Shown here: positions 3,013 to 26,326 of the stretch, piece after piece
Layout of the letters: each line of letters starts with the position of its first letter
How positions within the stretch are numbered: the stretch's first letter is position 1
Source of the DNA: a virus
DNA length: 34,370 bases
IMG/VR virus record: IMGVR_UViG_3300037628_000196
Location: 1 to 34,370 of that record
Direction: 5' to 3' (one strand)
Notes under the pieces: generated by a model
Told to the model about the DNA's origin: nothing
The model's input: only the letters and a program-made list of their open reading frames with translations
Database searches by the model: none
Made by a program: the position numbers and the translations under genes

Positions 3013-3246
3013 ATGTATATTAAAGTATTTGAACCAGATGGTCGCTATTTAGAAATGGAACTTGATCAACCGACTGTAATAATAACACCAGATGGACGTG
3101 CTAATATTGTATTAAACTCTACTAACCCTAATTTTGGTGACATACATCTTGATTTATCTTATACAGAATGTGTCGATTTGGCCCTCTTGATGTCCGATAC
3201 AGATACTAAACTAACACGACAACACCTTTGCGGAGTACAAAAATAA
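3013..3246 (+). CDS. Hypothetical beta-rich protein
   Basis: 77 residues. The ATG at 3013 follows GGAGTGAG (2996-3003); the frame extends to a TTG at 2989, which has no ribosome binding site of its own. The sequence alternates hydrophobic and polar residues (YIKVFEPDGRYLEMELDQ), suggesting a small beta fold. Not recognised. Its TAA overlaps the ATG of the helicase (TAATG), so the two genes are translationally coupled. Confidence 0.7.
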   Translation: MYIKVFEPDGRYLEMELDQPTVIITPDGRANIVLNSTNPNFGDIHLDLSYTECVDLALLMSDTDTKLTRQHLCGVQK

Positions 3247-5300
3247 TGCCGATTATAATTGATAGAAAAAACGGTCGCACCGCATCGATAGGCGTAAAGG
3301 GGGCGTCTGGCTATTACGATGAGCAAGACTTGAATCGTATCGGTGGCTGTTTTCGTAGACGTAACGATGAAGCCGATATGGAATGGCGAAGAGCTCATTA
3401 TGAAATTCCAGCCCCCTTAATAACTCGTTTGTTTGAGTCGGAATTAACAGACCTTGCAAACTTAGATTACCCACAACCTCTGTTTATGAATGGCTGGCAA
3501 AATAACATCGTTCACGAACTAGCCGATAATGAAGAATTGTCACCGCAATGGGATAAACTCCAAATATCAGAAGAAGCCGCTGCACTTTACAAAGAATGGA
3601 CTTCCTACGAAAAAGATCTTGCAGAGATTAGAGTGGGCGATCCAAAAGTTATTGGCAATATTCTTAGACGAAACGGAGTTCTGGATAAGTTTTGGGCTAG
3701 AAAGCCTGTTCCGAGTAAATATCCCAATACCGCATCGCATCAAGAAGCAGGAGTTGCGTTTTTTCTGCGCTCTTTAGAAATGGGCGGTGGACATATTTGT
3801 CTATTCGATGAAATGAGAACAGGCAAAACTAAGCAAGCTATCGATATAGCGCGTTATCTAATTCAAAAAGATTTGATTAAGCGCGTGCTTATCATTTGCA
3901 CTAACAGTATTAAGAAAGTTTGGCAAAACGAATTGATGCTAGACTCTCCGGATTATGGTTGGCTAAGTACTGTAATCGAAGGAACGAAAGCAAAAAAAGA
4001 GGATGCGTGGAAGTCTCTTGCCTTTTTTTATATCATCAATTACGAGGGTGCAAGAGCAGATAAAGAACAGATGTATAAATGGCAAGAAATTCACCAAAAA
4101 GATGGATGGATGCTAATTTGCGATGAATCCCATAAGATTAAGAACCCTTTAGCCAAACAGACAAGGGCGATTATGGGGCTAAACCCTACTTACTCTTTGA
4201 TGATGACAGGTACGCCAGTTGCTAATCGCCCAGAGGACGCCTTTTGTATGACAGATTTTGTATGCCCTGGATTGTTGGGTGCAAATCTTGAACAATTTTA
4301 TAGTGAGTTCGCCACGAGAGGTGGATATAACGGTAAAGCGATTACTGGTTATCATAAATTAGATGAAATCACTCATAGGTTATCTAAAATATCTTTAAGG
4401 CGTAAACGTGAAGATATTATGTTCGATGTAACCATTAGACAAGATCGATCTGGTACTATGATTGGCGATCAGCTAAAAGCGTATAACGAAATGCGCGATT
4501 TGCTCTGGACTGAGATTACTAACGAAAAGGGCGAGTTTACCGCAATGGAAGCACAGAATAACCTTGTTAAGATTCTCAGATTGCAACAAATAACTAGTGG
4601 TTATCTTCCGAAAGTTCCAAAGGAGGATATTTTATTGGATCTCTTTGGCAGATTTGACCCCACTTTAACTAGTTTTGATTCCAGGTCATCATCTGGGCCA
4701 CAAGGTAAAGATGATGTTGTATGGTTTGATAATAACTGGAAGCTAAAAGAATTAGATGAGTTTGTGGATGAATATCTTGAGTCTATTGGCAAACTTGTTA
4801 TTTGGTCTAGATATGTACCACCTCTAGAAATGTTGCACGACCGCTATGGTGAACACGGAACAGCCATGATAAAAGGTGGTATGAAAAGCGATTATATCTT
4901 TAATGAAATGACACGCTTTAATAATGATCCAGAATGCCGTATAATGGTATGTAATATTCTATCGGCGGAGGGTAAGGGATTCCCTGCGGCTGATTTCCAT
5001 TGGTTTTGGGATAAATGGTGGTCACCTCATCTTAACAAGCAAGCGCAAGATAGAACGCAAGGTGTGGCCAAATTAGGCGAAGAGCGACCTACGACTGTTA
5101 TCTCTGCTATTACCGATAATGCTATCGACGAGAGGCTTGAATATATACTCGATACCAAGCAAAGTTGGTCTGATCAAATGTTAGGCGACGAGGGCGTTGT
5201 TATTAGTGTACCCAAAATGGATAAAAACAGTTTGTTGTGGCTTATAGCTAAACCAGAAGAGGCGGAGCAGTATAAGAAGAAAATGATGGAGGAGGAATAA
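3246..5300 (+). CDS. SNF2-like superfamily 2 helicase
   Basis: 684 residues. Motif I is DEMRTGKT (188-195, Lys194), motif II is DESH (293-296), motif III is MMTGTPVANR just after. Motif V is represented by the stretch around SAEGKGFPAAD and motif VI by QAQDRTQG (599-606). This order and spacing match SNF2-like ATP-dependent translocases of phages, which remodel branched or protein-bound DNA during replication or recombination. The usual second arginine of motif VI (QxxGRxxR) is replaced by Gly606, while Arg603 is kept. The start at 3246 has GGAG at 3232 and overlaps the preceding stop; an earlier in-frame start at 3228 is less likely. Confidence 0.88.
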   Translation: MPIIIDRKNGRTASIGVKGASGYYDEQDLNRIGGCFRRRNDEADMEWRRAHYEIPAPLITRLFESELTDLANLDYPQPLFMNGWQNNIVHELADNEELSPQWDKLQISEEAAALYKEWTSYEKDLAEIRVGDPKVIGNILRRNGVLDKFWARKPVPSKYPNTASHQEAGVAFFLRSLEMGGGHICLFDEMRTGKTKQAIDIARYLIQKDLIKRVLIICTNSIKKVWQNELMLDSPDYGWLSTVIEGTKAKKEDAWKSLAFFYIINYEGARADKEQMYKWQEIHQKDGWMLICDESHKIKNPLAKQTRAIMGLNPTYSLMMTGTPVANRPEDAFCMTDFVCPGLLGANLEQFYSEFATRGGYNGKAITGYHKLDEITHRLSKISLRRKREDIMFDVTIRQDRSGTMIGDQLKAYNEMRDLLWTEITNEKGEFTAMEAQNNLVKILRLQQITSGYLPKVPKEDILLDLFGRFDPTLTSFDSRSSSGPQGKDDVVWFDNNWKLKELDEFVDEYLESIGKLVIWSRYVPPLEMLHDRYGEHGTAMIKGGMKSDYIFNEMTRFNNDPECRIMVCNILSAEGKGFPAADFHWFWDKWWSPHLNKQAQDRTQGVAKLGEERPTTVISAITDNAIDERLEYILDTKQSWSDQMLGDEGVVISVPKMDKNSLLWLIAKPEEAEQYKKKMMEEE

Positions 5301-5809: not shown

Positions 5810-5929
5810 ATGAAATGCAAACGATGTAACGGAAGAGGTATTGCCGAAACGAGACTCAGGGGCATAGTGATACATTTTATATGTCCAAAATGTAAGGGAA
5901 GTGGAAAATGCAAAAAACGATTTGTATAG
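5810..5929 (+). CDS. Tiny DnaJ-type zinc finger protein
   Basis: 39 residues. It contains two CxxCxGxG units, CKRCNGRG (about 3-10) and CPKCKGSG (about 26-33), the pattern of one zinc-binding half of the DnaJ central domain. The four cysteines would bind one zinc ion. The ATG at 5810 is four bases after the previous stop, with AAGGATGGAG upstream. Its 3' end overlaps the next gene by 22 bases. Function unknown; such mini-proteins may bind protein or nucleic acid. Confidence 0.65.
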   Translation: MKCKRCNGRGIAETRLRGIVIHFICPKCKGSGKCKKRFV

Positions 5930-6372
5930 ATTTTGATGGTGTTCTAGCGCATTATGATGGATGGCGAGGAGAAGATCATTTGGGAGGGCCAATAGAAGGT
6001 ATGAAAGAATTAATTGATAATCTTCGTCTCAACCATAATTATACAATTATAATATATTCATGTAGAAGTTTTGTAAAAATTGATAAATGGTGTAAATTGC
6101 ATGATATATATTATGATTATATCAATATGAATCCAGATTTTCCAGTTGATAATATTGGTAAACCTGCGGCTGATGTTTATCTTGACGACAGGGCAATTAC
6201 ATTTAATCCTAAAGATGTAAAGGCTGGTCTTGAGGGCGCAATCGTTAATTTTATGACATGGAGAGAAAAAGAAAATAAACACTCACTACTCTTTAGTGAT
6301 GCGGCAGAGGTGATTGAAAAAGATGCAAGAATCAAAACCCAATCTCTTAACAGTCGGACAGTTAGCCAGTAA
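5908..6372 (+). CDS. HAD-superfamily phosphatase
   Basis: 154 residues. Motif I is DFDGV with the nucleophile Asp8 and acid/base Asp10; motif II is the Ser in YSCRS (Ser51); Lys85 (GKPAAD) and Asp93-Asp94 (YLDDRA) form motifs III and IV. No large cap domain is present, so this is a small HAD hydrolase of the kind frequent in phages, acting on a nucleotide, nucleic-acid 3' end or small phosphoester. The exact substrate is not readable. It starts inside the zinc mini-gene and overlaps the next gene by 50 bases, an unusually long overlap here. Confidence 0.85.
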   Translation: MQKTICIDFDGVLAHYDGWRGEDHLGGPIEGMKELIDNLRLNHNYTIIIYSCRSFVKIDKWCKLHDIYYDYINMNPDFPVDNIGKPAADVYLDDRAITFNPKDVKAGLEGAIVNFMTWREKENKHSLLFSDAAEVIEKDARIKTQSLNSRTVSQ

Positions 6373-6742
6373 GTTTAGAGTGTCGCCAATATCTATAAGA
6401 CACATGGTATTAAACAGTACAATACCAACTATTTTTATAGATGATCAACCTTACTTTGATATTGAAAAAATCAATGAATGGATCAAAGAATATATCAACC
6501 ATAAAGATAAACAGTCAGTAAGAGTAGTGGGCGATATGGTTATAGATCCTAAAAAACGCGAGAAGTTGGAATACATGCAAGGTTTTGAATGCGAAAGATG
6601 TGAGTATGTTGGTGAGGTAGAAGTTTATAACGATGATACAATACATGGTATTGTAGATAAAATCAAACGCAAACATTCAAACGATTCGCCAGATTGCGAA
6701 AACAATATTCAAGATATTGTAATTGCGAGAAAGGAGTTTTGA
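6323..6742 (+). CDS. HTH and zinc-binding regulator-like protein
   Basis: 139 residues. Residues about 8-60 resemble a MerR/excisionase-type helix-turn-helix (LTVGQLASKFRVSPISIRHM ... FDIEKINEWIKEY). The C-terminal half carries Cys90-x2-Cys93 and His118-x6-Cys125, a probable zinc site. This combination suggests a DNA-binding regulator. The ATG at 6323 is preferred to the TTG at 6314 because AGAGGTG (6306-6312) is at better spacing. The HTH assignment is by pattern only. Confidence 0.7.
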   Translation: MQESKPNLLTVGQLASKFRVSPISIRHMVLNSTIPTIFIDDQPYFDIEKINEWIKEYINHKDKQSVRVVGDMVIDPKKREKLEYMQGFECERCEYVGEVEVYNDDTIHGIVDKIKRKHSNDSPDCENNIQDIVIARKEF

Positions 6743-6743
6743 A

Positions 6744-6857
6744 ATGTTCACATCAATCTTGGACACCATAGCGCTATTGCTAGGAGGTATTGCTATTTTG
6801 TTTTTATTATTAACTACAGCAGTAGTTATAGTTATGAAGGATAAAATATCAAAATGA
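6744..6857 (+). CDS. Small single-pass membrane protein
   Basis: 37 residues: a short N terminus, one long hydrophobic segment (about residues 8-31) and a basic tail (KDKISK), which by the positive-inside rule places the C terminus in the cytoplasm. AAGGAG is at good spacing (6731-6736), and its stop overlaps the next ATG (ATGA). It could act on the host membrane, for example in superinfection exclusion; this is speculation. Confidence 0.65.
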   Translation: MFTSILDTIALLLGGIAILFLLLTTAVVIVMKDKISK

Positions 6858-7294
6858 CAAACGCAACCTTTAGCTATGGCGATGTAGAAGATAGTGATGT
6901 ATATTGTGTATTTTGTGATGTGAATTATAAGCACAAAGATGCATTTATTCATTGTAATTCTCAATTACACATGGAAAATCGTTTTGCCATGCTTGCGCTT
7001 AGACCTCGAACTGGTACATTATTTTGTACTGATGGTGATATCTGTCCGCATCTTATAGAAGAGGATAATGATTTTTGGTGTGGGGTTGGTTACGAATCAT
7101 GCTACGGAAAGAGGGGTGAATTAAGAACTGGCAAAGAGTTTGGCGAAGATGCTCGCAAACCCTGGCGACCTTTATCGTGCACCAAAGCTATAACTGGCAG
7201 AGAGGGATTTGGCAAGAATGGCTCAGAGATACTTAAAATCAAACATTATAAAAGTGTTGGGCAAGGACAAAGAGAGGAGGATGAGAATGGTTAA
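6854..7294 (+). CDS. Cys/His-rich protein with C2H2-like zinc finger
   Basis: 146 residues. The N terminus carries Cys18-x2-Cys21-x11-His33-x5-His39, the spacing of a C2H2 zinc finger of the U1/matrin kind, in the context YCVFC...IHCNSQLH. A second cluster includes Cys58, Cys64 followed by Pro-His, Cys76 and Cys83, so a second metal site is likely. These fingers usually bind nucleic acid or protein. The gene overlaps both neighbours (4 and 8 bases). No precise family is recognised. Confidence 0.75.
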   Translation: MTNATFSYGDVEDSDVYCVFCDVNYKHKDAFIHCNSQLHMENRFAMLALRPRTGTLFCTDGDICPHLIEEDNDFWCGVGYESCYGKRGELRTGKEFGEDARKPWRPLSCTKAITGREGFGKNGSEILKIKHYKSVGQGQREEDENG

Positions 7295-7796
7295 AGAAAT
7301 AGTAAAAATGGATGCAATAGAAGAATATATCAGGGCTTACAATGGCAACGAATTAATGAAAACAAAAGCCAAGCGGGCAAGCACAAAGCTTGCTAATGCA
7401 AAAGAGCGATTGATTGCTCACATGGATAGCGTTGATAACGATTCGGTAAAACGAAATGGATTTTCTATGTCGAGAAGTAAGAGAAATTGGGGCAAGGTTA
7501 CTGATTATGAAAAATTAACCAAATGGGTAGAGGATCAAGATGAACCCCGGTCGCAATATATGGAGGAGGTATTCATAAAGGGGTCGCAGAAAGATCCGAG
7601 AGGCTTGCATATGATATTGAAAGATGCTCAATTAGCATCCGTAGAGTTAAGGCTACCTTTATCAGAATGTATGCCAAAAGGATTTTCGATGTTAACAACC
7701 GATGTCATAACTGTGAGGAAGGTGAAAGATGGCGTTAAGAAGTTACCGCCCAAAACGGCGGTAGAGCAGTTGGCTAATGAAATGGAGGGTTTTTGA
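7287..7796 (+). CDS. Hypothetical helical protein of the replication region
   Basis: 169 residues. ATG 7287 has AGGAGG at 7275-7280. The frame is open further upstream, but that stretch overlaps the previous gene. The N-terminal part is lysine-rich and helical (about 20-60), resembling a coiled coil; the C-terminal part has a beta-like stretch ending TTDVITVRKVKDGVKKLPP. Its place before a probable single-strand-DNA or recombination protein suggests a replication accessory, without recognised homology. Confidence 0.72.
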   Translation: MVKEIVKMDAIEEYIRAYNGNELMKTKAKRASTKLANAKERLIAHMDSVDNDSVKRNGFSMSRSKRNWGKVTDYEKLTKWVEDQDEPRSQYMEEVFIKGSQKDPRGLHMILKDAQLASVELRLPLSECMPKGFSMLTTDVITVRKVKDGVKKLPPKTAVEQLANEMEGF

Positions 7797-7832
7797 TATT
7801 AATCAGAAACTACAATAAGGAGACTTTTAGTA

Positions 7833-8672
7833 ATGGAAAACAAAGATAAAGCCACACAAGATATGACTACTGCGCTGGCGGAACTTAGCGATGAACTCGA
7901 AGAGGATGCACAAGGATATACACCACAGATGGTGGTGATAAAAATAGCTCACGATACTTCGCTGTTTGCAATTCCTTCTTTGAAACCAGTAAAACGAATT
8001 GTGGGTGTAATACTTGCATCTAAAAGAGTGCGAGTATTCTTCCCTAAGTTCGGGGTGGAGGCGGCAGAGAAACAAGTGGCAGAAGTTACTAATAACCGAC
8101 CAATATGTGCTTCTAATGATTACGAAAATGGCATTATGGCCGATGTAGATTGGGCAAGCATAACTGATCAAAAACATCCGGCTATAATTATTAAGGGCGA
8201 GGTTGCTAAGGGTGGTTTATCTTGTCGCACTTGTCCTTATAATGTATGGGGTAGCGTTGGAATGCTAGGCAAAGAGGGCAAGGGTAAAGCTTGTAGCGAT
8301 ATTCGCAGGCTCTTACTTTGGAAAGAAGGAATTAAAATATCTCAGCTCTTGCAAGTTCCCACTACTTCTATAAGAGCGTGGGATAATTACTGCTCTTCTC
8401 TCGATGCGGCAGGTCTTAAACATAACGCGATGATTACAGAAATTGGGTTAGAGGCCAGATCTAATGGTGGTCGTAATTGGTCTGTACTCAATTTTAGCGC
8501 CGGCGATGAAATTACGAACCCTATGGCGAAGGAACTGCTCGCCATAGTTCCAACACCGGATGGGCCAAAAGAATTGCATCGCTATCTTAGAGATGTATTT
8601 CATGGTCGCGAAATTGATCCAGACGACGATGCGGAAACTACAACTAGCGAAGCGGCTGGAGATGGTCTGTAA
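7833..8672 (+). CDS. Phage four-cysteine protein, possible ssDNA-binding/replication factor
   Basis: 279 residues. Four cysteines, Cys92, Cys131-x2-Cys134 and Cys154, sit in the pattern C...CxxCPYN...GKGKAC, followed by a P-T-T-S segment. From memory this matches a widespread phage family of unassigned role often near replication genes. The site would hold zinc. The C terminus is an acidic tail (DPDDDAETTTSE), a hallmark shared with single-stranded DNA-binding proteins, which is the basis for the tentative role. A strong AAGGAG precedes it. Gene confidence is high, function low. Confidence 0.75.
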   Translation: MENKDKATQDMTTALAELSDELEEDAQGYTPQMVVIKIAHDTSLFAIPSLKPVKRIVGVILASKRVRVFFPKFGVEAAEKQVAEVTNNRPICASNDYENGIMADVDWASITDQKHPAIIIKGEVAKGGLSCRTCPYNVWGSVGMLGKEGKGKACSDIRRLLLWKEGIKISQLLQVPTTSIRAWDNYCSSLDAAGLKHNAMITEIGLEARSNGGRNWSVLNFSAGDEITNPMAKELLAIVPTPDGPKELHRYLRDVFHGREIDPDDDAETTTSEAAGDGL

Positions 8673-8684
8673 GGAGATCTGCAA

Positions 8685-8981
8685 ATGTGTGGTCATCACC
8701 TTAATTGTTCGTGTTATTTTTGCTCGGAGTTAGTAAGGAAGAAATTCCGAGCAGAACATGGCGAGGAAACTAAAATGGCAAGAACCAAGAATGTCAATCG
8801 AATCAATGCACCCATCGGTATAACGGTGATGCTTAATAAACGCGTTACGCGCTTGATGTACGATTTGCAAATCGAAGAACCCGATTTGGGTGAAAATCGC
8901 GATGAGTTCATGAGCAATCTTCGACAAGCTACAGCGTATATTGAAAAGGCGCAAGAACTCGTCAACGAAAAGAAGATATAA
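8685..8981 (+). CDS. Hypothetical protein with Cys/His N terminus
   Basis: 98 residues. AAGGAG (8671-8676) overlaps the preceding stop and suits the ATG at 8685. The first 13 residues hold Cys2, His4, His5, Cys8, Cys10 and Cys13, a plausible small metal site. The rest is helical, ending in a likely coiled coil. An internal ATG at 8775 (MARTKN) with GAGG upstream could give a shorter product lacking the Cys cluster. Family not recognised. Confidence 0.7.
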   Translation: MCGHHLNCSCYFCSELVRKKFRAEHGEETKMARTKNVNRINAPIGITVMLNKRVTRLMYDLQIEEPDLGENRDEFMSNLRQATAYIEKAQELVNEKKI

Positions 8982-8988
8982 CTATATT

Positions 8989-9073
8989 TGTCGTCACTCC
9001 GAATAGAGTATACCAGAATCTGTCACACTATCTCTGGTGGCTCTGACACCATCGGCTTATCGGAGTGGCGACA
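8989..9073 (+). ncRNA. Candidate structured RNA with 14-bp closing stem (85 nt)
   Basis: Bases 8989-9002 pair with 9060-9073 over 14 positions (13 Watson-Crick and one T-G wobble at 8994/9068). Inside, ACCAGA (9012-9017) pairs with TCTGGT (9033-9038), and TGTCA (9021-9025) could alternatively pair with TGACA (9044-9048), so two folds compete. The right arm is followed by TCTTTT, so it may work as a terminator after the gene ending at 8981. A 57-base interior is far larger than usual for a terminator. Confidence 0.5.
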
Positions 9074-9143
9074 TCTTTTAGCAGTGCGGGGTGATGGGTA
9101 AGTAATTTCCAGCCTCGTCTTGTTATTCCTGGAGGATATTAAA

Positions 9144-9404
9144 ATGCCATTTTGGTTTGAAGATAAAGGCTTGTGCGAAGATGCATTAGATATGATTGCC
9201 GAAGAAGATGTTTCTCAAATTGAAAAATGGGGCAATCAAAAACATCATATACATAAATGGATGATTATTTTAGGCGAGGAATACGGTGAGTTATGTTTGG
9301 CTGTACTAGGATGTCAATTAAAGGATATTATTAGAGAAGCTACGCATGTTGCTACTGTTGCTCTTAAAATAGCGTGGATGGCAAGAAGAAAGTTTGAGGA
9401 TTAA
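9144..9404 (+). CDS. MazG-like nucleotide pyrophosphohydrolase-like protein
   Basis: 86 residues, all helical. EEYGE (45-49) matches the EExxE metal-binding motif of MazG-type enzymes, and REATHVATVA (64-73) occupies the second ExxD position with His68 in place of Asp, so activity may be altered. The family hydrolyses nucleoside triphosphates to monophosphates, or alarmones. GGAGG at 9131-9135 fixes the start at 9144; the frame also reaches a TTG-type start at 9120. It lies downstream of the 8989-9073 structure. Confidence 0.65.
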   Translation: MPFWFEDKGLCEDALDMIAEEDVSQIEKWGNQKHHIHKWMIILGEEYGELCLAVLGCQLKDIIREATHVATVALKIAWMARRKFED

Positions 9405-9406
9405 AT

Positions 9407-9667
9407 ATGAGAAAAGTATTTCGCATAGAACGTCTAATGATTGTTATTAGTGATGAAATAGAACATCGTTGTTGTCACTGGAAATGGTGTAATCATGGCT
9501 GGAAAAAACGTCACTTAACAATGTTTTATTTTTGGGTTGGTAAGTATTGGATAAATTTTCATACGTTGACGTTGTGGGATAAAAACATAACAGCCTTGCG
9601 ACATAAAATAGTTCGTGAAAAATTAGGCATACCCGATGGCAACTTAAATTTTTGGAGAGGATATTGA
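9407..9667 (+). CDS. Hypothetical basic, aromatic-rich protein
   Basis: 86 residues, starting two bases after the preceding stop. It is rich in Trp, His, Lys and Arg, with a CCHWKWCNHGWKKRH stretch (about residues 22-36) that could bind metal or nucleic acid. Not recognised. Its stop is followed by the methyltransferase start after a three-base gap (9668-9670), so it belongs to the same operon. Confidence 0.65.
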   Translation: MRKVFRIERLMIVISDEIEHRCCHWKWCNHGWKKRHLTMFYFWVGKYWINFHTLTLWDKNITALRHKIVREKLGIPDGNLNFWRGY

Positions 9668-9670
9668 ATA

Positions 9671-10657
9671 ATGCCAACTAAAGATTACGAAACTCCTTAT
9701 TCTGGCTATATTGAAAATGATTTTTATGAAACCAACCGTAATTGGTTATTCAAAACATACGGAACTCATGAATTAGATTGGTATATCCAACAGCGCAACC
9801 ACGAATGGTATGATACATACTTTGCCAAGAAAGCCGTACAAGATCATCAAGCTAAGAATAATTGTAGACTCGGTACGGTTTGCTTGGAATACATGGAAGA
9901 GCAGGGATGGATAGATTCAAGCTGCACTATACTCGATCCTATGTGCGGAATAGCAAGTCTGCTAATAGTGGCCGCCATCAAAGGTTACGATGGATGTGGC
10001 GTAGAATTAGAAGAATTATATTACAACGATATGATCGGATACGATATACCAATAAGCGAAGACGATGATATGGGATTGCTTATCGGCCATACCGCTCATG
10101 TGCAAGGCAATCTCGAAGCTTTTAGAAAAGCCACCGAAGGTATAAATGGCATTGGCGATATTAGAGTATACAATTACGATTCACGCAAATTGGGCACAGC
10201 CCCCATCGCTATCCAGACGCACACAAAATATAACGTCATATCTTCACCACCCTATATGGCTCTTACGGAGCAGACCAAAGAACAGGCGGCGACCGTATCG
10301 GAATACAGTGGACATAAAGAACATCATTATGGCAAGAACAATCCGGCGACTTTGGTTGGAACTAGATATCGTCGTGAAATGGAAAAGATTTACACTCAAC
10401 TTTATAGTGTTTTACAAGTCGGAGCGCATGTTTGTTTACTCACTCGAAATTGTATATCCGAGGGCAAATTAGTTGTGTTGGATAAAATGACAATTTCATC
10501 AATGGAGCGAGCTGGTTTTACTTATATAGAAACCAAGCGCGCATCGCTACCGGATATAAGTTTCTTAAAGCGTAACAACTGGATCAAGCATTTTAAGGAT
10601 AAAAAACTTCCGCTTATTGATTGGGAAGAATGTACGTTCTATGTCAAGGAGAAATGA
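9671..10657 (+). CDS. DNA methyltransferase (N4-cytosine/N6-adenine type)
   Basis: 328 residues. Motif I (SAM binding) is LDPMCG (88-93) and the catalytic motif IV is SPPY (192-195), both in the order expected for amino-methyltransferases. SPPY rather than DPPY favours N4-cytosine methylation, but this is not decisive. No restriction endonuclease is next to it, so it is an orphan enzyme, probably protecting phage DNA from host restriction or marking it. GGAGAG lies about 14 bases upstream. The next gene overlaps its stop. Confidence 0.88.
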   Translation: MPTKDYETPYSGYIENDFYETNRNWLFKTYGTHELDWYIQQRNHEWYDTYFAKKAVQDHQAKNNCRLGTVCLEYMEEQGWIDSSCTILDPMCGIASLLIVAAIKGYDGCGVELEELYYNDMIGYDIPISEDDDMGLLIGHTAHVQGNLEAFRKATEGINGIGDIRVYNYDSRKLGTAPIAIQTHTKYNVISSPPYMALTEQTKEQAATVSEYSGHKEHHYGKNNPATLVGTRYRREMEKIYTQLYSVLQVGAHVCLLTRNCISEGKLVVLDKMTISSMERAGFTYIETKRASLPDISFLKRNNWIKHFKDKKLPLIDWEECTFYVKEK

Positions 10658-11055
10658 TGTTCAAAGAAGCGCAGAATGCAGTAAGAAAATTTCATGAAGT
10701 TTGCGAGCATCCAATAAACGATAAACCAACTATGTTAAATCGTGCTAGATTTGAAAAACGTGTTACATGGATGTTGGAAGAGTTGGGAGAATTAGTATCT
10801 GCTAAAAATTTTGTTGATCAATTAGATGGTTTATCTGATTTGTTATATTTTATTTTTGGTACATTTGTAGAAATGGGTGTTGATGGTAGTGAAATATTTC
10901 AAATAGTTCATGAAGCTAATATGAGAAAACAAAGTTCACGAAATGCTAAATTTAGACACGGGAAAACTGTTAAGCCCGATAACTGGCTACCGCCTGAATC
11001 TGAAATATCGTTATATTTGGATAGTATATTCAATACAATTAAGGAGACTAACTGA
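10657..11055 (+). CDS. MazG/PRA-PH-like nucleotide pyrophosphohydrolase
   Basis: 132 residues. The motif EELGE (41-45) and DGLSD (57-61) are the metal-binding EExxE and ExxD-like elements of the all-alpha NTP pyrophosphatase superfamily. The following stretch (LLYFIFGTF, then VHEANMRK) is typical of phage members. It likely cleaves non-canonical or excess (d)NTPs. Start choice: ATG codons at 10654 and 10657 both follow AAGGAG (10646-10651); the second has better spacing. The first overlaps the methyltransferase stop. Confidence 0.82.
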   Translation: MFKEAQNAVRKFHEVCEHPINDKPTMLNRARFEKRVTWMLEELGELVSAKNFVDQLDGLSDLLYFIFGTFVEMGVDGSEIFQIVHEANMRKQSSRNAKFRHGKTVKPDNWLPPESEISLYLDSIFNTIKETN

Positions 11056-11365: not shown

Positions 11366-11412
11366 TACGATTGCTTAATAAAAATAATTTCCTAACTATA
11401 AGGAGTTGAACA

Positions 11413-14400
11413 TTGTGGAAAGCAGAGTATCAATATGTTCATGTGATGTACGAGTTTATGATTGGGCGACAAATCAAACGCTTAAAGTGGTCAACCACTG
11501 AGCGTATAAAATTGGAGGATATAGATAATTGGATTACAGAAAATCCAGACAGAAGAGCCTATTACCATACCATCCAAACTTTTAATAATCATGTACGCAC
11601 GGAAGGGGAAAAGCATTGGTGTCCGATGTACTTCGATTTGGACGCTAATGAAGATAGGAATCTCACAGTTGAAGATGCCTTACAAGATGCACGGAAACTT
11701 GCCGGCTATTTTTCTGAGACATATTCAATTGATTCGCAGGTGTGGTTTTCGGGGAATCGAGGATTTCATATCCTTGTTAATGGGTTGGTGTTTGGTGCTG
11801 TGGAGTCAGATACTCTTACATACTCTTGGCGACACGTCGCCGAAAATATTAAAGAGATGTTGGCTTTGGCAACGCTAGACAACACAGTTTATTCTTATCC
11901 TAGAATGTGGCGGATAGAAAATACACCAAATCCCAAACAAGATTTCTACAAAATTGCACTCACTTTACAAGAGTTAAATACTTTAGATGTTGGCGATATT
12001 GTATCTTTGGCCGTCGAGCCAAGAAATATAAAAATTGCTAATCAAGAAGTAACAATCTCGCATCCGGAACTTGTTAAACTATTCGCCGATAGTAACGATG
12101 AGTATCAAGAACGTCAAGAAGTTCAAGAAATTGAATTTGATAAAGAATATAAGTTCGGAGATGTATATCCAGAATGTATTGCATTTCTTTTAGAAAAAGG
12201 ATTAGCTGTACTTGGTACAAAAAACCGAGCAGATATGGCTATGGCTAATTTTTTCAAAGCTTTTGATGCGCCGATTCAAGATGCTAAAAGAACAATGTGC
12301 GAATGGTCTAGGAATATACCGATAAATTTAACACACGTTCATAATCCAGATACAAGAGAATCGCAAACTATGGCGGTCTTGTCTGCCGTGTATTCTGGTT
12401 CGCAATATCGATTTAGCTGTGGAAGTATATTGACTTGCGGCATGAAGGTTGATTGCGATAATTGTATTGTAAAGGAAATCAAACCAATAGAGGTGGCTTT
12501 GGCTGACCATGCCAAATCGGAATATATGTCTGCTAAAATCTACACCAAAGCCGATGCTATCGGTAGGGATAGTCATGACCTTTTAATACCGGAAGAGATT
12601 AAAGGGTGGTGCAGAAACAATCCAGAAATAAGTAAATGCGTAGATTGTCCTCAGCAATTTTATTACAACGCAGAGAAGGCTCGTAATGAACGTATAATAA
12701 AATTCGATGCCAGTAATCCAAAAACTGTTCCATTGATTGATATGAATCAGCGCGATCTTATGCAAAAAGTTCGGTATGTATTTGGCATACACAACAGATG
12801 TGTCGATTTTAAGTTCGATATAGAATGGATAAATGCAATGGGTTTGTATGTAGCACCCACTTTAACCGACTTCGCTATCGAAGAGAGTGTAGGTCGCGTA
12901 AGGGTTATGTATTTTGGTCATGGATTAAAACTTAATACAAGTTATGGATTGCTAGGATATGTTCATCCGCACCCACGCACAATGCAAGCTACTTTTTTGG
13001 TAGAAGAAGCAACGCCTCTGTCATCGACTTTAGCAAATTTTACACTATCAAAAAGTAGGCTAAAAGAGTTAAAAATATTCCAGAAAAAACCAGAACAAAA
13101 TCCATTGGATAAAATAAAAGAAATACATGCGTATTTTATAAATGATTTTTTGTTTATATTTGGACGTGGAGATTTAATTATGGGAGTTGATTTGGTTTAT
13201 CATTCTGTGCGTCGTTTTAATTTTCAAGAGCGTAACATAAAGGGGTGGTTAGATGCTCTTGTGATTGGCGATACTGGTCAGGCAAAAACCGAAATTATAA
13301 AACAGCTAATGGGTTACTACAATCTAGGTACATTTGCATCTGGAGAATCGTCCAGCAGAACAGGTTTGCTTTATAATATCCAAATGGTTCAAGGACAAGA
13401 CGCTTGGATACAGTATGGCTTACTGTGCAGGGCTAATGGCATGCTTGTTGCTATTGACGAGATACACGGCATGAAACCTGATGATTTCAAAGAGTTTACA
13501 AGGGTGCGGAGCGAGGGTGTTGTTAATGTAATGCGTTATGCTTGGGGTAGTGCGCTGGCAGAGACTAGACTCATATCTATTGCTAATCCAAAAGAAGGAA
13601 TGTCTATGGAAAGCTATGGCTATCCGGTTATGGCTATTTTGGATTTACCTATCTTTAAGTCCAAAGAAGATATAAGACGTTTTGATTTTGCCATTGGAGT
13701 TATGGCTGGAGAAGTGGGCGATGATGTATTACATACGGACGTGCATGATATTTTATCTAAAGACAATCCTTATACTAAAGATTTATGTAGAGACTTACTT
13801 CTTTGGATATGGACTAGAAAGCCAGAAGAAATAACAATAACTAATACTACCGAAAAGTATGTCCTAGAAAAATCAGTTAAGTTTTGTAGAAATTGGATTG
13901 CCGATATACCACTTGTTGAATCAGCAGACATGAGACTCAAGATTGTTAGAATAGCTGCCGCCATAGCTGGTAGGGTATACAATACGGAAGATGGTATAAA
14001 TCTTTTAATAGAAAAAATTCATATCGATGCGGCTATTGAATTTTTGGAAACAATATACCAATCGCCTAGTTTAGATTATTATGGCTACAGCATGGAGCGA
14101 GCTAAAACCATTCTCGATGACGAAGAAATGGATAAGCTTGCAGAACACTTTACACAGAATTTTGGCATCAACGCAGAGGTAATAGCGAAATGGGTATTAT
14201 CTACTAACACTTTTCAAAAGAATATTATAAAGGTGGCGTTAAATTTAGAATCGAGTGAAGTAGATCAAATTATATCTTTGTTTATATCTAATAAATTCTT
14301 AGATATGGGGTACAGTAGCAAGTATCGCAAGACTCCAATGGGTAGAAAATTCCTTAGACTCGTAGCTGGCATAGATGAAATACGAGATGAAGAAGAAACA

Positions 14401-14439
14401 GATCTTATAGATGAAACTATTGCAAAGGATGATTTTTGA
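11413..14439 (+). CDS. Primase-helicase: AEP primase fused to MCM-type AAA+ helicase
   Basis: 1008 residues. The N terminus has archaeo-eukaryotic primase motifs: YFDLD (metal ligands Asp75, Asp77), SGNRGFH (113-119, His119) and the third acid Asp156 followed by RMWRIEN (164-170). A middle part has Cys336, 342, 348, 351 and Cys400, 409, 412, likely one or two metal sites. The C terminus is MCM-like: Walker A GDTGQAKT (619-626), Walker B AIDEIH (Asp682, Glu683), sensor 1 ANP (724-726) and the arginine finger RRFDF (755-759). It should prime and unwind DNA for phage replication. The start is TTG, with AAGGAG at 11400-11405; no ATG with such a site exists nearby. An MCM-AEP fusion is known from a Bacillus cereus prophage. 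Confidence 0.9.
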   Translation: MWKAEYQYVHVMYEFMIGRQIKRLKWSTTERIKLEDIDNWITENPDRRAYYHTIQTFNNHVRTEGEKHWCPMYFDLDANEDRNLTVEDALQDARKLAGYFSETYSIDSQVWFSGNRGFHILVNGLVFGAVESDTLTYSWRHVAENIKEMLALATLDNTVYSYPRMWRIENTPNPKQDFYKIALTLQELNTLDVGDIVSLAVEPRNIKIANQEVTISHPELVKLFADSNDEYQERQEVQEIEFDKEYKFGDVYPECIAFLLEKGLAVLGTKNRADMAMANFFKAFDAPIQDAKRTMCEWSRNIPINLTHVHNPDTRESQTMAVLSAVYSGSQYRFSCGSILTCGMKVDCDNCIVKEIKPIEVALADHAKSEYMSAKIYTKADAIGRDSHDLLIPEEIKGWCRNNPEISKCVDCPQQFYYNAEKARNERIIKFDASNPKTVPLIDMNQRDLMQKVRYVFGIHNRCVDFKFDIEWINAMGLYVAPTLTDFAIEESVGRVRVMYFGHGLKLNTSYGLLGYVHPHPRTMQATFLVEEATPLSSTLANFTLSKSRLKELKIFQKKPEQNPLDKIKEIHAYFINDFLFIFGRGDLIMGVDLVYHSVRRFNFQERNIKGWLDALVIGDTGQAKTEIIKQLMGYYNLGTFASGESSSRTGLLYNIQMVQGQDAWIQYGLLCRANGMLVAIDEIHGMKPDDFKEFTRVRSEGVVNVMRYAWGSALAETRLISIANPKEGMSMESYGYPVMAILDLPIFKSKEDIRRFDFAIGVMAGEVGDDVLHTDVHDILSKDNPYTKDLCRDLLLWIWTRKPEEITITNTTEKYVLEKSVKFCRNWIADIPLVESADMRLKIVRIAAAIAGRVYNTEDGINLLIEKIHIDAAIEFLETIYQSPSLDYYGYSMERAKTILDDEEMDKLAEHFTQNFGINAEVIAKWVLSTNTFQKNIIKVALNLESSEVDQIISLFISNKFLDMGYSSKYRKTPMGRKFLRLVAGIDEIRDEEETDLIDETIAKDDF

Positions 14440-16510: not shown

Positions 16511-16534
16511 TTTCTGTTGAAATGAAGTTTTAGC
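16499..16534. terminator. Weak hairpin at the convergent gene boundary
   Basis: GCTAA (16499-16503) can pair with TTAGC (16530-16534), and ATTTC (16510-16514) with GAAAT (16519-16523) around a TGTT loop; the bases between do not pair. With a T-rich left side and TTTTAG on the right, it could slow both convergent transcripts, but it is much weaker than an ordinary intrinsic terminator. Confidence 0.25.
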
Positions 16535-19500
16535 TATCGAAGAGGTTTTAGGCCTGTCTTCAAACCGGGAAGCCCCTCTAGTATCGAAGGTTCGGTTTCT
16601 TTTTCTCTTGTTTTGGGAAGAAAGATAAAATCTACAGGGGCTTTTCCTGCTCGCACAGAGTTTATTCTCGATAGCGTATTGCCAGCTAAAATATATGGTT
16701 GCATTGCTTTTGGCAAAGATTTAAGGCCATCCTTTAATCTTCTTGAATCCTGCTCGCCTACTGATTCCAATGCACCTACCGCTATATTGCCTAATACGAT
16801 AGCCATCTCCGTTGATGGCGTAACTGGTACAGGCAATTCAAAAAACCCTCCCACTCTTCCCGTAGGCAGCGGCCCGGTAATTGCAAGATAATCCATATTA
16901 TACCCCATGCCGCGCGCGACAGCAGCGATAGCTGCCATTTTAGTTATGTAAGAAAATGGAGCTATTCGCTGTGCGGCCGTTGCCCGCAACCCAAACACGT
17001 TGACACCCTTTACTGCCTGGCGATACATCTGTGGTATAAACGCACCAAAGAAATGAGAAGGCCAGTTGGTAAATTGTAAGGTGTTTTTTCCTACCGAACT
17101 CCATAAGTGCGCTGGCATATCCCAGGGATTATAAGAGAATTGTGTAACCTTTATATTCCTATTCGCCATATCAATCCAATCATCTATTAGTCCATCGTCT
17201 GCCATACTTGCTAATGTATCCCAAAAATTTTGTGGAGTTAGTTTTTTCTGGACACTTTTTTTCGCAGCGTATTCTACTACTCGATTAAGATTAGCTTGCG
17301 AATTATTGGCAATATAAAATAACGCGCCATTGCCCGCGCCAGCTACATTCATATACATATCAACGGCAGAGAATGGCTTTGCTCCAAATTTAATTGCATT
17401 GGCATAGGTAGTTGTTAGTCTATTCAATCCTTCTTTAGTAGATATATCAAAACTAGACATAGCCAATCTGTTACCACCAACAGTAACCGGGAAATGTTTA
17501 AGTAATTGCTTTCCGCCAGGTGTAAACATAGATTCCCATCCGGCTAAAGTGGCCTTGTTTCCGATGGTTGCAATCGTTAGTTGTGATTGAAATCCCTGCT
17601 TGATTAAAGAGCGCGTATTGAAACTTATTGTACCACCATAAGCGAGCTTTCGCATTTCGCCAGCAAATCGTTCAAATGAACGCTCGGACATTTCTTTACC
17701 AAATACATGCGAGTAAGCCGGGCCGAATACCTTTTTGTTTAATCTGTTTAATTTAGAATCCCACGCCGATGGCATACCTCGCACATGACGAACCCAATTA
17801 GTAGAGTACTCTTTAGCCTCATCTTTAATAGCACCATCTAGTAAATCCAATATGCCATCCATGCGAGATGCGGCTGGTTCAAAGTAAAGCTTGCGTAAGG
17901 ATTCGCGATAAGCCATCGAAGTAATGTTAGTCCAATCTCTTCTAAATACATTTTCATCAGCAGAGCGAGCAATTACCTCTGGTGCGGACACACCCTTCGG
18001 TAATTTTTTCGCCATAGCTCTTTGTATTCTATAATCAGATGGCAGCACCCCTTTGCCAGCTTCAACTCGTTTGATAATATCGTGTCTAAAATTTCTTCTA
18101 TGAAAATAGAATTCGTGACGTGCTGGTAGATCATCAATATCAAGCCCTTTGCCTATTAGCCCTGCTTCCTCTAACAGATCGGCCATAGCGTTCCAGTGCA
18201 ATTCCCTATCGGCTTCAACGACTGAACTAATATAGGATCTAATTTCTGAACTAACATCTTTCGCACCTTCGAGTACGGCTTCCGGCCCTTCATCCGCAAA
18301 GCGAGACGCTATATCATCGTATATACTATCATCGGTCCATGTTTCTCCAAACTCCTTTTTGAATTGTTTTTTCATATTAAACACCCAATCGGATCGCTTG
18401 GCATAGGCTATGGTAGATACAGTCATGGCATCATCTATTAGCTTATAAGCTTCCGGTATGCCCATTATTTCATACATACGCCACGATGGTATACCGCCTA
18501 TACTGCCAGCAGATACCCATGCGCTGAAATTCTTTGGTGCATTAGCGGCGGTTGTAATATCGGCAGCTATAGCTTGTATTTGATGTGGTGATAGTTCATC
18601 CAACTTTGCAAGTTTGCCGTGATTGATTGCTTCAATTTGTTTATTCAATTTAGCCGAACTTACAAAAGGTTTAATAGCTATATCTTCTCCATCTGTAACT
18701 TTCTTCAATGTTGGCTTTGTAACTTGATCGATAAACTCTCTAGCCATTAAGGTTTTCTTAACATCGTTGATATCGATGTAAGGAATACCGGCATTTTTCA
18801 TAGCATCTATATAAGCTGCGGCTAATTTATGATGAACATCTCCGGCGCGTCCTTGATTGATAAACGAGAACACTTCTGCAAATGCTTCGACGGTACTCGA
18901 TGATCCGTAAAGGGTTGGGAATAACTCTAAAGTTTTTTCAGATCGCTCCGCCAAATCTTCCATAGTTGGTATTAGTGGAGTTTGTTTTTTGAATACCTTA
19001 CTGCGAGCTTCTCTAATATAGACCGCAAAACTATCTTTAGATTCTTCTGGTAAATTATGCCATATACCATGTCCTAATTCATGCAAAAACACCCCACCCT
19101 CTGTCGTGGATGTCCAATTTGGATCTAGAGCCTTTAGTTTTTCGGCTATATCTGGCCGTATGCGTATTGTGTTATCCAGCCTGGTGAAACTAGCGAGAGC
19201 TTGAGGATTTTGTGGAGCAATTGGCAGAACTGTCATTCCGTATCTTTCCGCCAACTCCATATTTTCTTTTATACTTGGCTCGTGTGGCCATACTCCTTGT
19301 ATCGGCTTAAACCCATACTCCTTGCCCCACACTTCTGCTATCTCTGCCGCATCATCGCCCCACACTTTGCCAGCCCGCTCGCCGTTTTTGCCAACATACC
19401 TACCAGCATCCGATAAGTTATTTATAACATTATCAAACATATTGTACTTTTTTGCTTTCCATTTTACAGCCTCTTGAAATCCTTTATGCAATACATTATC

Positions 19501-20199
19501 TGGTACATCATTAAATATACCTTTAATACCCGGTGCTTTAAGAGCGACTTGACCTATGCCTCCCCAAAAGAAAGCATCCCATAAAATATCTGCACCCATG
19601 TTAATAGTAAATTTGCCGGCCGTAACAAAAGGTTTTACTCTAATGTGTGTGCCGGGGAAGCGTTCATGATTATCGATCCATTTTTCTACTTTGTCATACA
19701 GCGGAGCAGGAAGAACCATTCTTTTAATTTTAGTTGCAGCGTCCGAATATTCTTCGCCATGCCATCCATCGATAAAAGCTTGTACTAATTCATCGTGTGG
19801 TATTCCTTTTCCAGTTCCAAACACAGTCTCTCCAGCTCTAAACAAAAGAGGTATTCCGTGCTTCATTTCTAAATCTTGAATGTTCGATGCAATTCTTCTA
19901 GGTGTATCTATAAGCTGCGCCCCTTTGATAACATTCGTTAATAACGATCCTAACGCCTCTTTCCCAAAGAGTGCTGCCAGCGATTCATCGTTACCTTGCA
20001 TAATCAGCGGCACAGTTTGCTCTAGCGGAACAGCATCGAGTCGCCCTTGTGTTTCGCGCGAAAATATAGATATGGTTTCTGGAAAAAGATCTCCTACTGC
20101 TGGCTCTTCTTCTTCTTCTGGAAACAAATTGCCTGTCGCTGACTTTTCTTCTGGAAAAAGATTACCGACCGCTGGCTGCTCTTTCGATGGCATCTGCAT
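16534..20199 (-). CDS. Large internal (ejection-type) virion protein with HELGH metalloprotease motif
   Basis: 1221 residues from ATG 20199 (TTG 20202 and ATG 20193 are alternatives; AAGGGG precedes). The N terminus holds three copies of a VGNLFPEE-like unit. Residues 373-377 are HELGH (zinc-metalloprotease HExxH), followed about 60 residues on by VEAFAEVF (Glu438, Glu442), resembling the anthrax lethal-factor-like metallopeptidase arrangement. The remainder is long, mainly helical and without recognised domains. Size and position as last gene of the virion operon, after two coiled-coil proteins, match internal proteins ejected into the host. Its start overlaps the previous gene by 38 bases. 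Confidence 0.82.
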   Translation of the reverse strand: MQMPSKEQPAVGNLFPEEKSATGNLFPEEEEEPAVGDLFPETISIFSRETQGRLDAVPLEQTVPLIMQGNDESLAALFGKEALGSLLTNVIKGAQLIDTPRRIASNIQDLEMKHGIPLLFRAGETVFGTGKGIPHDELVQAFIDGWHGEEYSDAATKIKRMVLPAPLYDKVEKWIDNHERFPGTHIRVKPFVTAGKFTINMGADILWDAFFWGGIGQVALKAPGIKGIFNDVPDNVLHKGFQEAVKWKAKKYNMFDNVINNLSDAGRYVGKNGERAGKVWGDDAAEIAEVWGKEYGFKPIQGVWPHEPSIKENMELAERYGMTVLPIAPQNPQALASFTRLDNTIRIRPDIAEKLKALDPNWTSTTEGGVFLHELGHGIWHNLPEESKDSFAVYIREARSKVFKKQTPLIPTMEDLAERSEKTLELFPTLYGSSSTVEAFAEVFSFINQGRAGDVHHKLAAAYIDAMKNAGIPYIDINDVKKTLMAREFIDQVTKPTLKKVTDGEDIAIKPFVSSAKLNKQIEAINHGKLAKLDELSPHQIQAIAADITTAANAPKNFSAWVSAGSIGGIPSWRMYEIMGIPEAYKLIDDAMTVSTIAYAKRSDWVFNMKKQFKKEFGETWTDDSIYDDIASRFADEGPEAVLEGAKDVSSEIRSYISSVVEADRELHWNAMADLLEEAGLIGKGLDIDDLPARHEFYFHRRNFRHDIIKRVEAGKGVLPSDYRIQRAMAKKLPKGVSAPEVIARSADENVFRRDWTNITSMAYRESLRKLYFEPAASRMDGILDLLDGAIKDEAKEYSTNWVRHVRGMPSAWDSKLNRLNKKVFGPAYSHVFGKEMSERSFERFAGEMRKLAYGGTISFNTRSLIKQGFQSQLTIATIGNKATLAGWESMFTPGGKQLLKHFPVTVGGNRLAMSSFDISTKEGLNRLTTTYANAIKFGAKPFSAVDMYMNVAGAGNGALFYIANNSQANLNRVVEYAAKKSVQKKLTPQNFWDTLASMADDGLIDDWIDMANRNIKVTQFSYNPWDMPAHLWSSVGKNTLQFTNWPSHFFGAFIPQMYRQAVKGVNVFGLRATAAQRIAPFSYITKMAAIAAVARGMGYNMDYLAITGPLPTGRVGGFFELPVPVTPSTEMAIVLGNIAVGALESVGEQDSRRLKDGLKSLPKAMQPYILAGNTLSRINSVRAGKAPVDFIFLPKTREKETEPSILEGLPGLKTGLKPLR
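20078..20175 (-). repeat. Three DNA repeats encoding VG(N/D)LFPE units
   Basis: Three related 26-base copies begin at 20078, 20117 and 20150 (+ strand wording TCTGGAAAaAgATtacC), spaced 39 and 33 bases. On the - strand they encode AVGNLFPEE, ATGNLFPEE and AVGDLFPET near the N terminus of the large internal protein, separated by acidic linkers. They could be short linear docking motifs for another virion protein. Confidence 0.7.
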
Positions 20200-21295
20200 C
20201 AAACCCCTTTTCTAATAAGATTTTTCTACTTCGATCATCTAATTTAATACTACTTTTCTTTTGCTGTTTCATTTGTGCTTGAAGCGATTGCACGAACTGG
20301 TTGAACTCGTCACCGCTTGTTGTCAAAACAGGAGTCTTTTCAATAGCGGATATTTTTTTACTCGTTTTTGTTTCCACAGCTTCGACAGGCTTATCGATAG
20401 TCTCGACATCTGTCGGCACTTTCAATCTTGGAAGAAATCCAAACTGTTGATCTCTTCCGAAATTAAATATCCCCTTTCCCCTATCTTCAAATGGCTGTAT
20501 TGTAGGAGGAACTAAGGGTGAGGCCAATCCTTTAGATTCATATATTGGTCTTAACTGATCTGCCCAACGCGCCATCTCGTCAGCGGCCTGGACAGCCTGC
20601 TGATTCAATAATTCATTTTCGGTGTGAACGGGATTTATAAGTATCCCAATAAGTGCATTATAAGCTACTGCCGCACTTTGATAATTAGATACAACTACTT
20701 GCTCTTCTTTAGAAAAAGCTTCGCCGCGAAGATCGCGTTGCAATTCTCGATCTAATTGATTTTCTATTTCTCTAAACTTTTGGCCAGCTTTTCGCTCTTC
20801 TGTTGTAAAAGCCTGCCCTGCTCCACGCTCTCCGGTAGTGAAGGTTTGTCCGGCTTTGCGCTCGCCTGTAGCAAATGCTTGCTCTAAATCTTTTAATCGC
20901 AGATCAAAAGTTTGTTTTAATTTAGACATTTCAAGATCGAATCTTTGCTCATCTTCTCGCGCAAGATTGGTAAAGGTGTTCTTCATATCGCGCATTTTAA
21001 GATCAAATTCTCTATTAAATTGAGCATTTGCTTTTGCAAAATCAAACTTTGCAATATTTAATTCTTGTCCTGCTCCAAACTCTTTAGTCTCTCTAACCTC
21101 CCGCACATCGAATCTACCCTGCTCTCCTCGTTCTCGCAGAATAGTCGGAAGCAGTTGTCTTATCAAAGAAGATTGGTTTTTGGCCTGCACCGCCTCCGCC
21201 TCTTCCATTTGTTTTTTACGCTCGCTCAAACCTTCTAATATTCCAGTAAGTATAGATAGCTTTTTGCTTGGCTCGAAACTTAAACTCTTACCCAC
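20162..21295 (-). CDS. Internal virion protein with 11-residue (hendecad) coiled-coil repeat
   Basis: 377 residues. From residue 86 to 174, Phe recurs every 11 residues without a break (86, 97, 108, 119, 130, 141, 152, 163, 174), with units such as FTTGERGAGQA. Hendecad spacing suits a long, nearly straight helix able to form a bundle or channel. The C-terminal half is mixed, with basic ends. Start is GTG; AAGGAT lies upstream at a wide spacing, and no ATG occurs before residue 30, so the start is somewhat uncertain. Position between two other internal proteins suggests an ejection protein. Confidence 0.75.
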   Translation of the reverse strand: MGKSLSFEPSKKLSILTGILEGLSERKKQMEEAEAVQAKNQSSLIRQLLPTILRERGEQGRFDVREVRETKEFGAGQELNIAKFDFAKANAQFNREFDLKMRDMKNTFTNLAREDEQRFDLEMSKLKQTFDLRLKDLEQAFATGERKAGQTFTTGERGAGQAFTTEERKAGQKFREIENQLDRELQRDLRGEAFSKEEQVVVSNYQSAAVAYNALIGILINPVHTENELLNQQAVQAADEMARWADQLRPIYESKGLASPLVPPTIQPFEDRGKGIFNFGRDQQFGFLPRLKVPTDVETIDKPVEAVETKTSKKISAIEKTPVLTTSGDEFNQFVQSLQAQMKQQKKSSIKLDDRSRKILLEKGFDADAIERAASGR

Positions 21296-25463: not shown

Positions 25464-26326
25464 TATACATTTATTCCTAATAAGGATATACAATCATCTA
25501 GCGTAATATTATCATTAAGATTGTCTATATACAAAAATGGAATATTCAGATCCAATACCTTTATAGTGCTTTTATCATTTGCTACAAACCCTGATGATCT
25601 TTTGATCATATCCATTATAATTGCAACATCATCTGGAACATTTACTATTGAATCTTTATCGAAGTGAACTTTACTAGTCAATAAAAATACTACTCCAATT
25701 TCAGATAATCTTATAGCCAAACTTAATAACGCCTTACTAATGTCATTAAATACGTCTACCACATAATAATTAGTTTTGGTATCTATAATAGTTTGTATGC
25801 AAGATAAAAACGCACCATCTGTTGTGTCCGCATTGGATTTAATGGCATCACATATCAAATTGAAATCTCTAATCTCGCCAATATAATTACAATGCAGCCC
25901 GACTTTACCCAACAGTTCGAGTAATTCTTCTTCTTGGTATATCCATCGGTGGCATCCAAAATCATCTTCTTGCGATCCATAAAAACGAGATGCCAATTCT
26001 TTTGCATCAATTATAAGTTCTTCGCCCCGCAAACCTATATATCGCTCTACTATAGTTTGCAAATGAGGCATCTCTAGTGTAATTCTACCACCACATTTCA
26101 ATACCCTGACTAACTCAGATAAAAATTCTTCTTGTTTGTGTCGAGATATATGCTCTAGTATATTTTCCGCAAGAATATAATCTACACTATTATCGGGATA
26201 TGGGAGATGAGTATTAGATAAATCTAAAACTAAGTCTACACCCGGATTAGCATTACCATCTATATTGATCCATCCTTGTTCTTTAGAAAGTATTTTATTT
26301 CCACATCCAACATTTAATTTAATCAT
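25463..26326 (-). CDS. SAM-dependent methyltransferase (type 11 like) with extra C-terminal domain
   Basis: 287 residues. The N terminus has the SAM loop NVGCGN (5-10), Asp23, then LPYPDNSVDYILAENILEHI (41-60), the motif pattern of class I methyltransferases near glycan pathways. Residues about 185-287 form an additional alpha/beta-looking domain with no recognised family. It overlaps the glycosyltransferase gene (ATGA), so both act together, perhaps on the same sugar. Its DNA is AT-rich (32 of 120 bases are G or C at 25681-25800). Confidence 0.8.
   Translation of the reverse strand: MIKLNVGCGNKILSKEQGWINIDGNANPGVDLVLDLSNTHLPYPDNSVDYILAENILEHISRHKQEEFLSELVRVLKCGGRITLEMPHLQTIVERYIGLRGEELIIDAKELASRFYGSQEDDFGCHRWIYQEEELLELLGKVGLHCNYIGEIRDFNLICDAIKSNADTTDGAFLSCIQTIIDTKTNYYVVDVFNDISKALLSLAIRLSEIGVVFLLTSKVHFDKDSIVNVPDDVAIIMDMIKRSSGFVANDKSTIKVLDLNIPFLYIDNLNDNITLDDCISLLGINV

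Follow-up and report, generated by a model that had tools for sequence, protein, structure and literature searches.

A divergent AEP-MCM primase-helicase encoded by a phage, from a family in which AEP and DnaG-type primase modules share a homologous MCM chassis

The gene studied here has its closest described counterpart in BcMCM, which is encoded by a Bacillus cereus prophage and joins an archaeo-eukaryotic primase (AEP) to an MCM helicase (McGeoch and Bell, 2005; Samuels, 2009; Sanchez-Berrondo, 2012; reviewed in PMC4538821). In vitro, BcMCM shows 3'-5' helicase, primase and polymerase activity and extends primers with dNTPs; its primase activity was absent in one early study and seen in another, and a restart role has been suggested for it (PMC4538821). 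AEP-MCM fusions have been known since 2005 and are a familiar instance of replication parts of archaeal/eukaryotic type that cooperate in bacteria. The gene analyzed here lies in a linear IMG/VR record of 34,370 bases, hereafter the window (i.e., the whole stretch of DNA that was analyzed), which is probably a fragment of a phage genome. The original prediction that one chain of this locus fuses an AEP to an MCM is borne out by profiles, motifs and predicted folds, and the prophage precedent that it invoked is indeed BcMCM. The window protein is a divergent new member of the AEP-MCM family, of a kind already known from BcMCM.

The gene occupies window positions 11413-14439 (+), a single stop-free frame of 1008 codons, with the following features.

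11400..11405, plus strand: Shine-Dalgarno-like AAGGAG, with a 7-nt spacer to the TTG start codon (11413)
11413..14439, plus strand: AEP-MCM primase-helicase, 1008 aa (Pfam, PHROG and PDB matches, AlphaFold2 model)
11413..12132, plus strand: PriS-like AEP catalytic domain, residues 1-240 (fold, profile, invariant residues)
12154..12468, plus strand: PriL Fe-S_N / PriCT-1-like helical domain, residues 248-352 (profile similarity; cysteines C255, C336, C348, C351)
12475..13032, plus strand: MCM N-terminal tier, an OB fold with predicted zinc cysteines C400, C409, C412 and C463, residues 355-540 (structure alignment)
13045..14106, plus strand: MCM AAA+ motor, residues 545-898 (PF00493, 6mii_E, 6sko_4)
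13267..13290, plus strand: Walker A GDTGQAKT, residues 619-626, of the MCM type GDxGxAK[ST] (motif alignment)
14119..14367, plus strand: putative C-terminal helical/winged-helix-like domain, residues 903-985 (model secondary structure; weak wHTH match, E 0.11)

Two PHROG families matched the protein: PHROG 18685 from end to end (E 1.8e-103) and the primase family PHROG 16345 (E 7e-35). The proposed TTG start is credible because of the AAGGAG upstream of it and because the relative L095 has an ATG at the homologous codon, where its sequence reads GGAGGAGG followed by ATG. Compared from this start, the two N-termini read MWEEYRYVDV against MWKAEYQYV, and the proteins share about 50% identity over residues 248-981 and 39-43% across the AEP part.

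Judged from its motifs and predicted fold, the N-terminal part is a complete PriS-like AEP, the activity of which is predicted. Residues D75, D77, S113, G114, H119, D156, R164, R167 and K180 were identified in the window protein, and those named beforehand (D75/D77, H119, D156, R164/R167) lie exactly where they had been placed. The catalytic residues (DxD, SGxxGxH, the third Asp and the basic residues) are invariant in 25/25 aligned sequences, many of which are only about 25-30% identical. The window sequence alone gave a weak match to PF01896 (DNA_primase_S; E 1.6e-3, below the cut-off), and a profile of 24 sequences matched archaeal PriS at E 9.4e-6. When the N-terminal 358 residues were modelled alone with AlphaFold (pLDDT 86.7), the fold comparison placed Prim-PolC (Z 14.3), LigD PolDom (Z 13.7) and Sso PriS (Z 13.6) close to the model, and every row of the top 50 matches was an AEP. 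The AEP fold, whose absence had been set as a ground for abandoning the reading, is thus predicted.

The domain that follows the AEP appears from sequence comparison to be of the PriL Fe-S_N/PriCT type. Searched against the PDB, the family profile of residues ~190-395 returned only PriL C-terminal domains, with yeast PriL as the best match (E 1.3e-3), plus one designed binder (E 4.1). Several relatives gave sub-threshold scores with PF04104 and PF08708 (PriCT-1); the relation of PriCT-1 and PriX to the PriL Fe-S domain is discussed in PMC5862659. Two cysteine clusters had been noted between the AEP and the MCM, and both are present: C336/C342/C348/C351, preceded by C255, and C400/C409/C412/C463. 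The role of a plain linker for this region did not hold, as the first cluster appears to be part of the PriL/PriCT-like domain, and the second part of the MCM OB tier that bears the zinc cysteines. Within the family, C255, C336 and C348 are kept with minor exceptions, C400, C412 and C463 are near-invariant, and some of the PriL cysteines, though not all, have clear counterparts.

The remaining two thirds are MCM-like. PF00493 matched residues 601-729 above its curated cut-off (E 1.7e-9), and phmmer against the PDB retrieved MCMs of archaea and eukaryotes, starting at E 1e-8. No SF3 or DnaB model matched the protein at E <= 1 in Pfam; these helicases had been named as the matches that would speak against an MCM, and MCMs came out best in both the profile and the fold searches. 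The Walker A (619-626), Walker B (D682/E683), sensor 1 (A724-N725-P726) and arginine finger (within 752-759, EDIRRFDF) are all positioned as originally described and are invariant or near-invariant across the family alignment, which places the arginine finger at R756 and sensor 2 at R846. The full-length AlphaFold2 model, built on a 48-row alignment, had a mean pLDDT of 87 and a pTM of 0.63, the latter leaving it uncertain how the primase is placed against the ring. The top PDB matches of this model in Foldseek were all MCMs (E 2e-22). With VIA-align, window residues 357-896 were superposed on residues 103-607 of an archaeal MCM (6mii_E; Z 30.4, 458 residues), and 6sko_4 aligned with Z 28.2 and an rmsd of 3.0 across 310 residues within 544-897.

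The alignments to archaeal MCMs begin past the A domain (chain residue ~101-103). By this comparison, the MCM N-terminal A domain is absent from the window protein and the primase stands in its position. In the model, therefore, the OB/zinc tier of the MCM is present, with predicted zinc binding, and the A domain alone is replaced. The MCM N-terminal tier was reportedly missing in early BcMCM work; our data suggest that this tier is present.

Such fusions had been thought rare in podovirus-like genomes. Nevertheless, 84 of 50,697 phage records carry a relative at E <= 1e-5, most of them sharing one half only (MCM or AEP), and in IMG/VR a single alignment-based pattern scan led to 171 confirmed relatives; MCM fusions of this kind are therefore not rare. 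Pattern scans built on a single protein found no match in the viral and genome contig collections, and it was the alignment-based scans that found relatives. Eighty of the IMG/VR relatives were kept: 24 are AEP-MCM proteins, 48 carry a DnaG-type primase as judged by motif, and the other 8 are incomplete or ambiguous. The vB_BboS-125 protein matches the window protein over 92% of its length. For the Bacillus BSP7/BSTP, Microbacterium, Arthrobacter, Weizmannia and Manatee Spring phages, the match starts at about residue 350-386 or later, and the N-termini of their proteins are TOPRIM domains, mostly with a recognizable CHC2 zinc finger, i.e., DnaG-type. No CHC2 plus TOPRIM N-terminus is present in the window protein.

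The two halves were then compared separately with the kept IMG/VR relatives and the named phages (E <= 1e-3). Window residues 1-350 matched 26/26 AEP proteins (self included) and 0/55 TOPRIM proteins, and residues 355-1008 matched both groups, so that the joint is sharp and the chassis common; the matches of the TOPRIM proteins start at a median window residue of 359. At the level of sequence, two unrelated primase types, AEP and DnaG-type, sit on homologous MCM chassis in different phages. No description of a TOPRIM-MCM fusion or of a primase exchange was found in the open-access literature searched.

The covalent AEP-MCM fusion is not universal, given L095 (571-3581) and L097 (5941-9245), the two closest relatives of the window protein, where the AEP and the PriL-like plus MCM parts lie in separate ORFs; in L097, an ORF of 111 aa separates the two. 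The frame of L095 breaks at TTTTTTT/GGGGG homopolymers; this may be an assembly error, and we do not claim a programmed frameshift.

Other arrangements were also observed. In L100 (IMG/VR 3300027675_000004, 175 kb), the AEP-MCM gene contains an intein with a LAGLIDADG endonuclease at 5926-7671 (PF14890, E 3.5e-13; PF14528, E 1.2e-7). It directly precedes the AEP active-site motif SGsKGFH, and the frame then shifts to an ORF at 7740-10328. Also, Vibrio and Pseudomonas phages (L010, 5836-8805; L011, 6016-8904) encode AEP primases of about 970 aa with a different ATPase half, DUF927-like or unrecognized, which is an additional partner of the AEP module. The Vibrio phage gene adjoins a SNF2-type helicase.

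The phylogeny of the MCM chassis was based on 77 rows and was rebuilt without the long-branch rows and with closer relatives added. All 21 AEP rows and 4 TOPRIM rows form one clade (support 96), and the rest of the family consists of TOPRIM forms. The window, L095 and L097 form a branch of their own (support 100). Rooting with distant archaeal-virus MCMs weakly suggests a change from TOPRIM to AEP. Two independent AEP fusions, one for the window and one for BcMCM, were considered and are not claimed: AEP and TOPRIM rows are intermingled in the best tree, yet a single AEP origin was neither rejected (p-AU 0.21) nor demonstrated.

The following genes lie with the AEP-MCM gene in the early strand block.

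3228..5300, plus strand: SNF2-type helicase, same strand block, upstream of the AEP-MCM gene (PF00176, E 5e-25)
10621..11055, plus strand: MazG-like nucleotide pyrophosphohydrolase, just upstream (PF01503, E 2e-15; phrog_671)

Most of the related phages examined likewise have a SNF2-, DEAD-type or otherwise annotated helicase gene upstream of their primase-MCM gene. Two near-complete genomes, both with terminase, portal and capsid genes, resemble the window: G001 (47,300 bases, holding L095) is collinear with it across nearly all larger genes and circularly permuted, and G003 (47,730 bases, holding L097) is similar but more distant. G001 includes a terminase, whereas none was recognized in the window; from these two genomes, the complete genome would measure some 47 kb, of which the window would cover about 70%. 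The capsid and portal proteins of the window have distant relatives only (about 20-25% identity), in phage records from Myxococcus, Bradyrhizobium, Stenotrophomonas and spring water. In a collection of 84,980 species, at the sensitivity of one pattern scan, relatives of the AEP-MCM protein were found at 7 loci, all in Bacillota (Paenibacillus, Brevibacillus, Sutcliffiella, Lachnospiraceae).

Other genes of these phages deserve mention. A glycosyltransferase family 9 (heptosyltransferase-like) gene lies among the virion genes (window 26323-27267, minus strand), a phosphoheptose-isomerase-like gene was detected at window 5908-6372 (plus strand), and in G001 a PfkB kinase and a HAD phosphatase adjoin the terminase (L178, 10343-11951). 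This is possibly a heptose-pathway set for glycosylation of the virion or the host surface. A 1222-aa protein (window 16534-20202, minus strand) matched no Pfam or PHROG family significantly; its G001 counterpart is about 26% identical.

The absence of a DNA polymerase, which the original prediction had pointed out for this 34 kb fragment, holds for PolA, PolB, PolIII-alpha and PolY profiles, which detected nothing in the window and nothing in five records with AEP-MCM relatives (47-175 kb; G000-G005). Also, neither G001 nor G003 has an unassigned early ORF of polymerase size. A search with PF03175 (protein-primed PolB) gave no match and was uninformative, as the control genomes were silent too. 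By contrast, PolA was found by profile search in 4/4 BcMCM-type genomes (G009-G012), two genes downstream of the primase-MCM gene in vB_BboS-125, and in 3/3 TOPRIM-MCM genomes by the same search or by annotation. The lineage of the window would therefore depend either on a host polymerase or on elongation by the AEP itself.

We consider it probable that the gene encodes the replicative primase-helicase of the phage, with elongation most likely carried out by the host polymerase. The C-terminal two thirds would assemble as an MCM-type hexameric ring, made of the OB/zinc tier and the AAA+ motor, which would load on DNA and unwind the fork, with 3'-5' polarity by analogy with BcMCM. On the N-tier of this ring, the PriS-like AEP, aided by the PriL/PriCT-like domain, would take the place of the A domain and lay down primers. 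A priming role fits the observation that a DnaG-type primase is swapped in on the same chassis. Bulk DNA synthesis would be left to another polymerase, most likely that of the host, given that no polymerase could be recognized in the near-complete relatives.

Alternatively, the AEP could be both the primase and the main DNA polymerase, so that one chain would unwind, prime and copy the genome, a role proposed for the PrimPol of phage NrS-1. This self-sufficient replicase seems to us unlikely, while deserving serious attention. It would account for the lack of recognizable polymerases described above, and it agrees with the proximity of the AEP fold to Prim-PolC and the LigD polymerase domains and with the extension of primers by BcMCM (PMC4538821). 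Yet the BcMCM-type genomes examined carry PolA, so that possession of an AEP-MCM does not spare those phages a polymerase, and IMG/VR records may be fragments or may hold a diverged polymerase that escapes the search. Moreover, lambda, P22 and other phages without a polymerase use that of their host, and AEPs do not proofread; for these two reasons we favor the host polymerase.

That the protein is a restart or repair enzyme, acting in repriming or gap filling and not at the fork, is in our view highly improbable. The Prim-PolC and LigD-like folds at the head of the AEP list and the restart role suggested for BcMCM (PMC4538821) would agree with it, but neither the window nor the scanned ORFs of G001 and G003 revealed another primase or, the SNF2 translocase aside, another replicative helicase. 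About equally improbable is a structural or DNA-binding AEP on a protein acting as an MCM helicase only, which the lack of primase activity in the early BcMCM work (PMC4538821) would permit, but which is at odds with the retention of every catalytic residue in such diverged sequences and with the fact that relatives substitute another primase and not an arbitrary domain.

With a replicative primase-helicase as the preferred reading, the window adds to the known fusions a divergent AEP-MCM lineage, collinear with near-complete genomes in which no polymerase is recognizable, and makes replication of a whole phage genome by a PrimPol-helicase directly testable. Also, two non-homologous primases on one MCM ring constitute a natural experiment on helicase-primase coupling. 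The added interest lies in this exchange on one ring, in the presence of the MCM N-tier and in the lineage without a recognizable polymerase. We advance tentatively, and with more doubt than conviction, the broader proposal that the AEP, PriL-like and MCM polypeptide is the whole virus-encoded DNA synthesis machine of a genome of ~47 kb and that the primase is a plug-in, AEP and DnaG-type modules replacing one another at about residue 355.

Among known systems, the NrS-1 PrimPol has an AEP domain that can be likened to that of the window by description only. The AEP primases of Vibrio, Pseudomonas and Thermus phages have the same catalytic residues as the window AEP, but another helicase half or none, and no MCM module was found in them. 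Conversely, the TOPRIM-MCM proteins of Bacillus BSP7/BSTP, Microbacterium Krampusvirus, Arthrobacter Wollypog, Weizmannia Youna2 and ctokW459 share a homologous OB tier, MCM motor and tail with the window protein (identity of about 26-30% in the common part) behind a CHC2 zinc finger and TOPRIM N-terminus of DnaG type, unrelated to the window AEP. The nearest annotated protein of an isolated phage is the 'DNA primase small subunit' AYP68415 of vB_BboS-125, a PolA-encoding phage; it is collinear with the window protein, at 27% identity. Finally, BcMCM, which probably corresponds to 1028-aa IMG/VR proteins such as L017, given their length and lineage, comes from genomes that carry PolA where examined, unlike the relatives of the window, and stands outside the fully supported branch of the window, L095 and L097. 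At 27-28% identity to the window protein, it nevertheless has an identical domain order, from the AEP and the PriL/PriCT-like domain through the OB tier and the MCM motor to the C-terminal tail, with all active-site residues kept.
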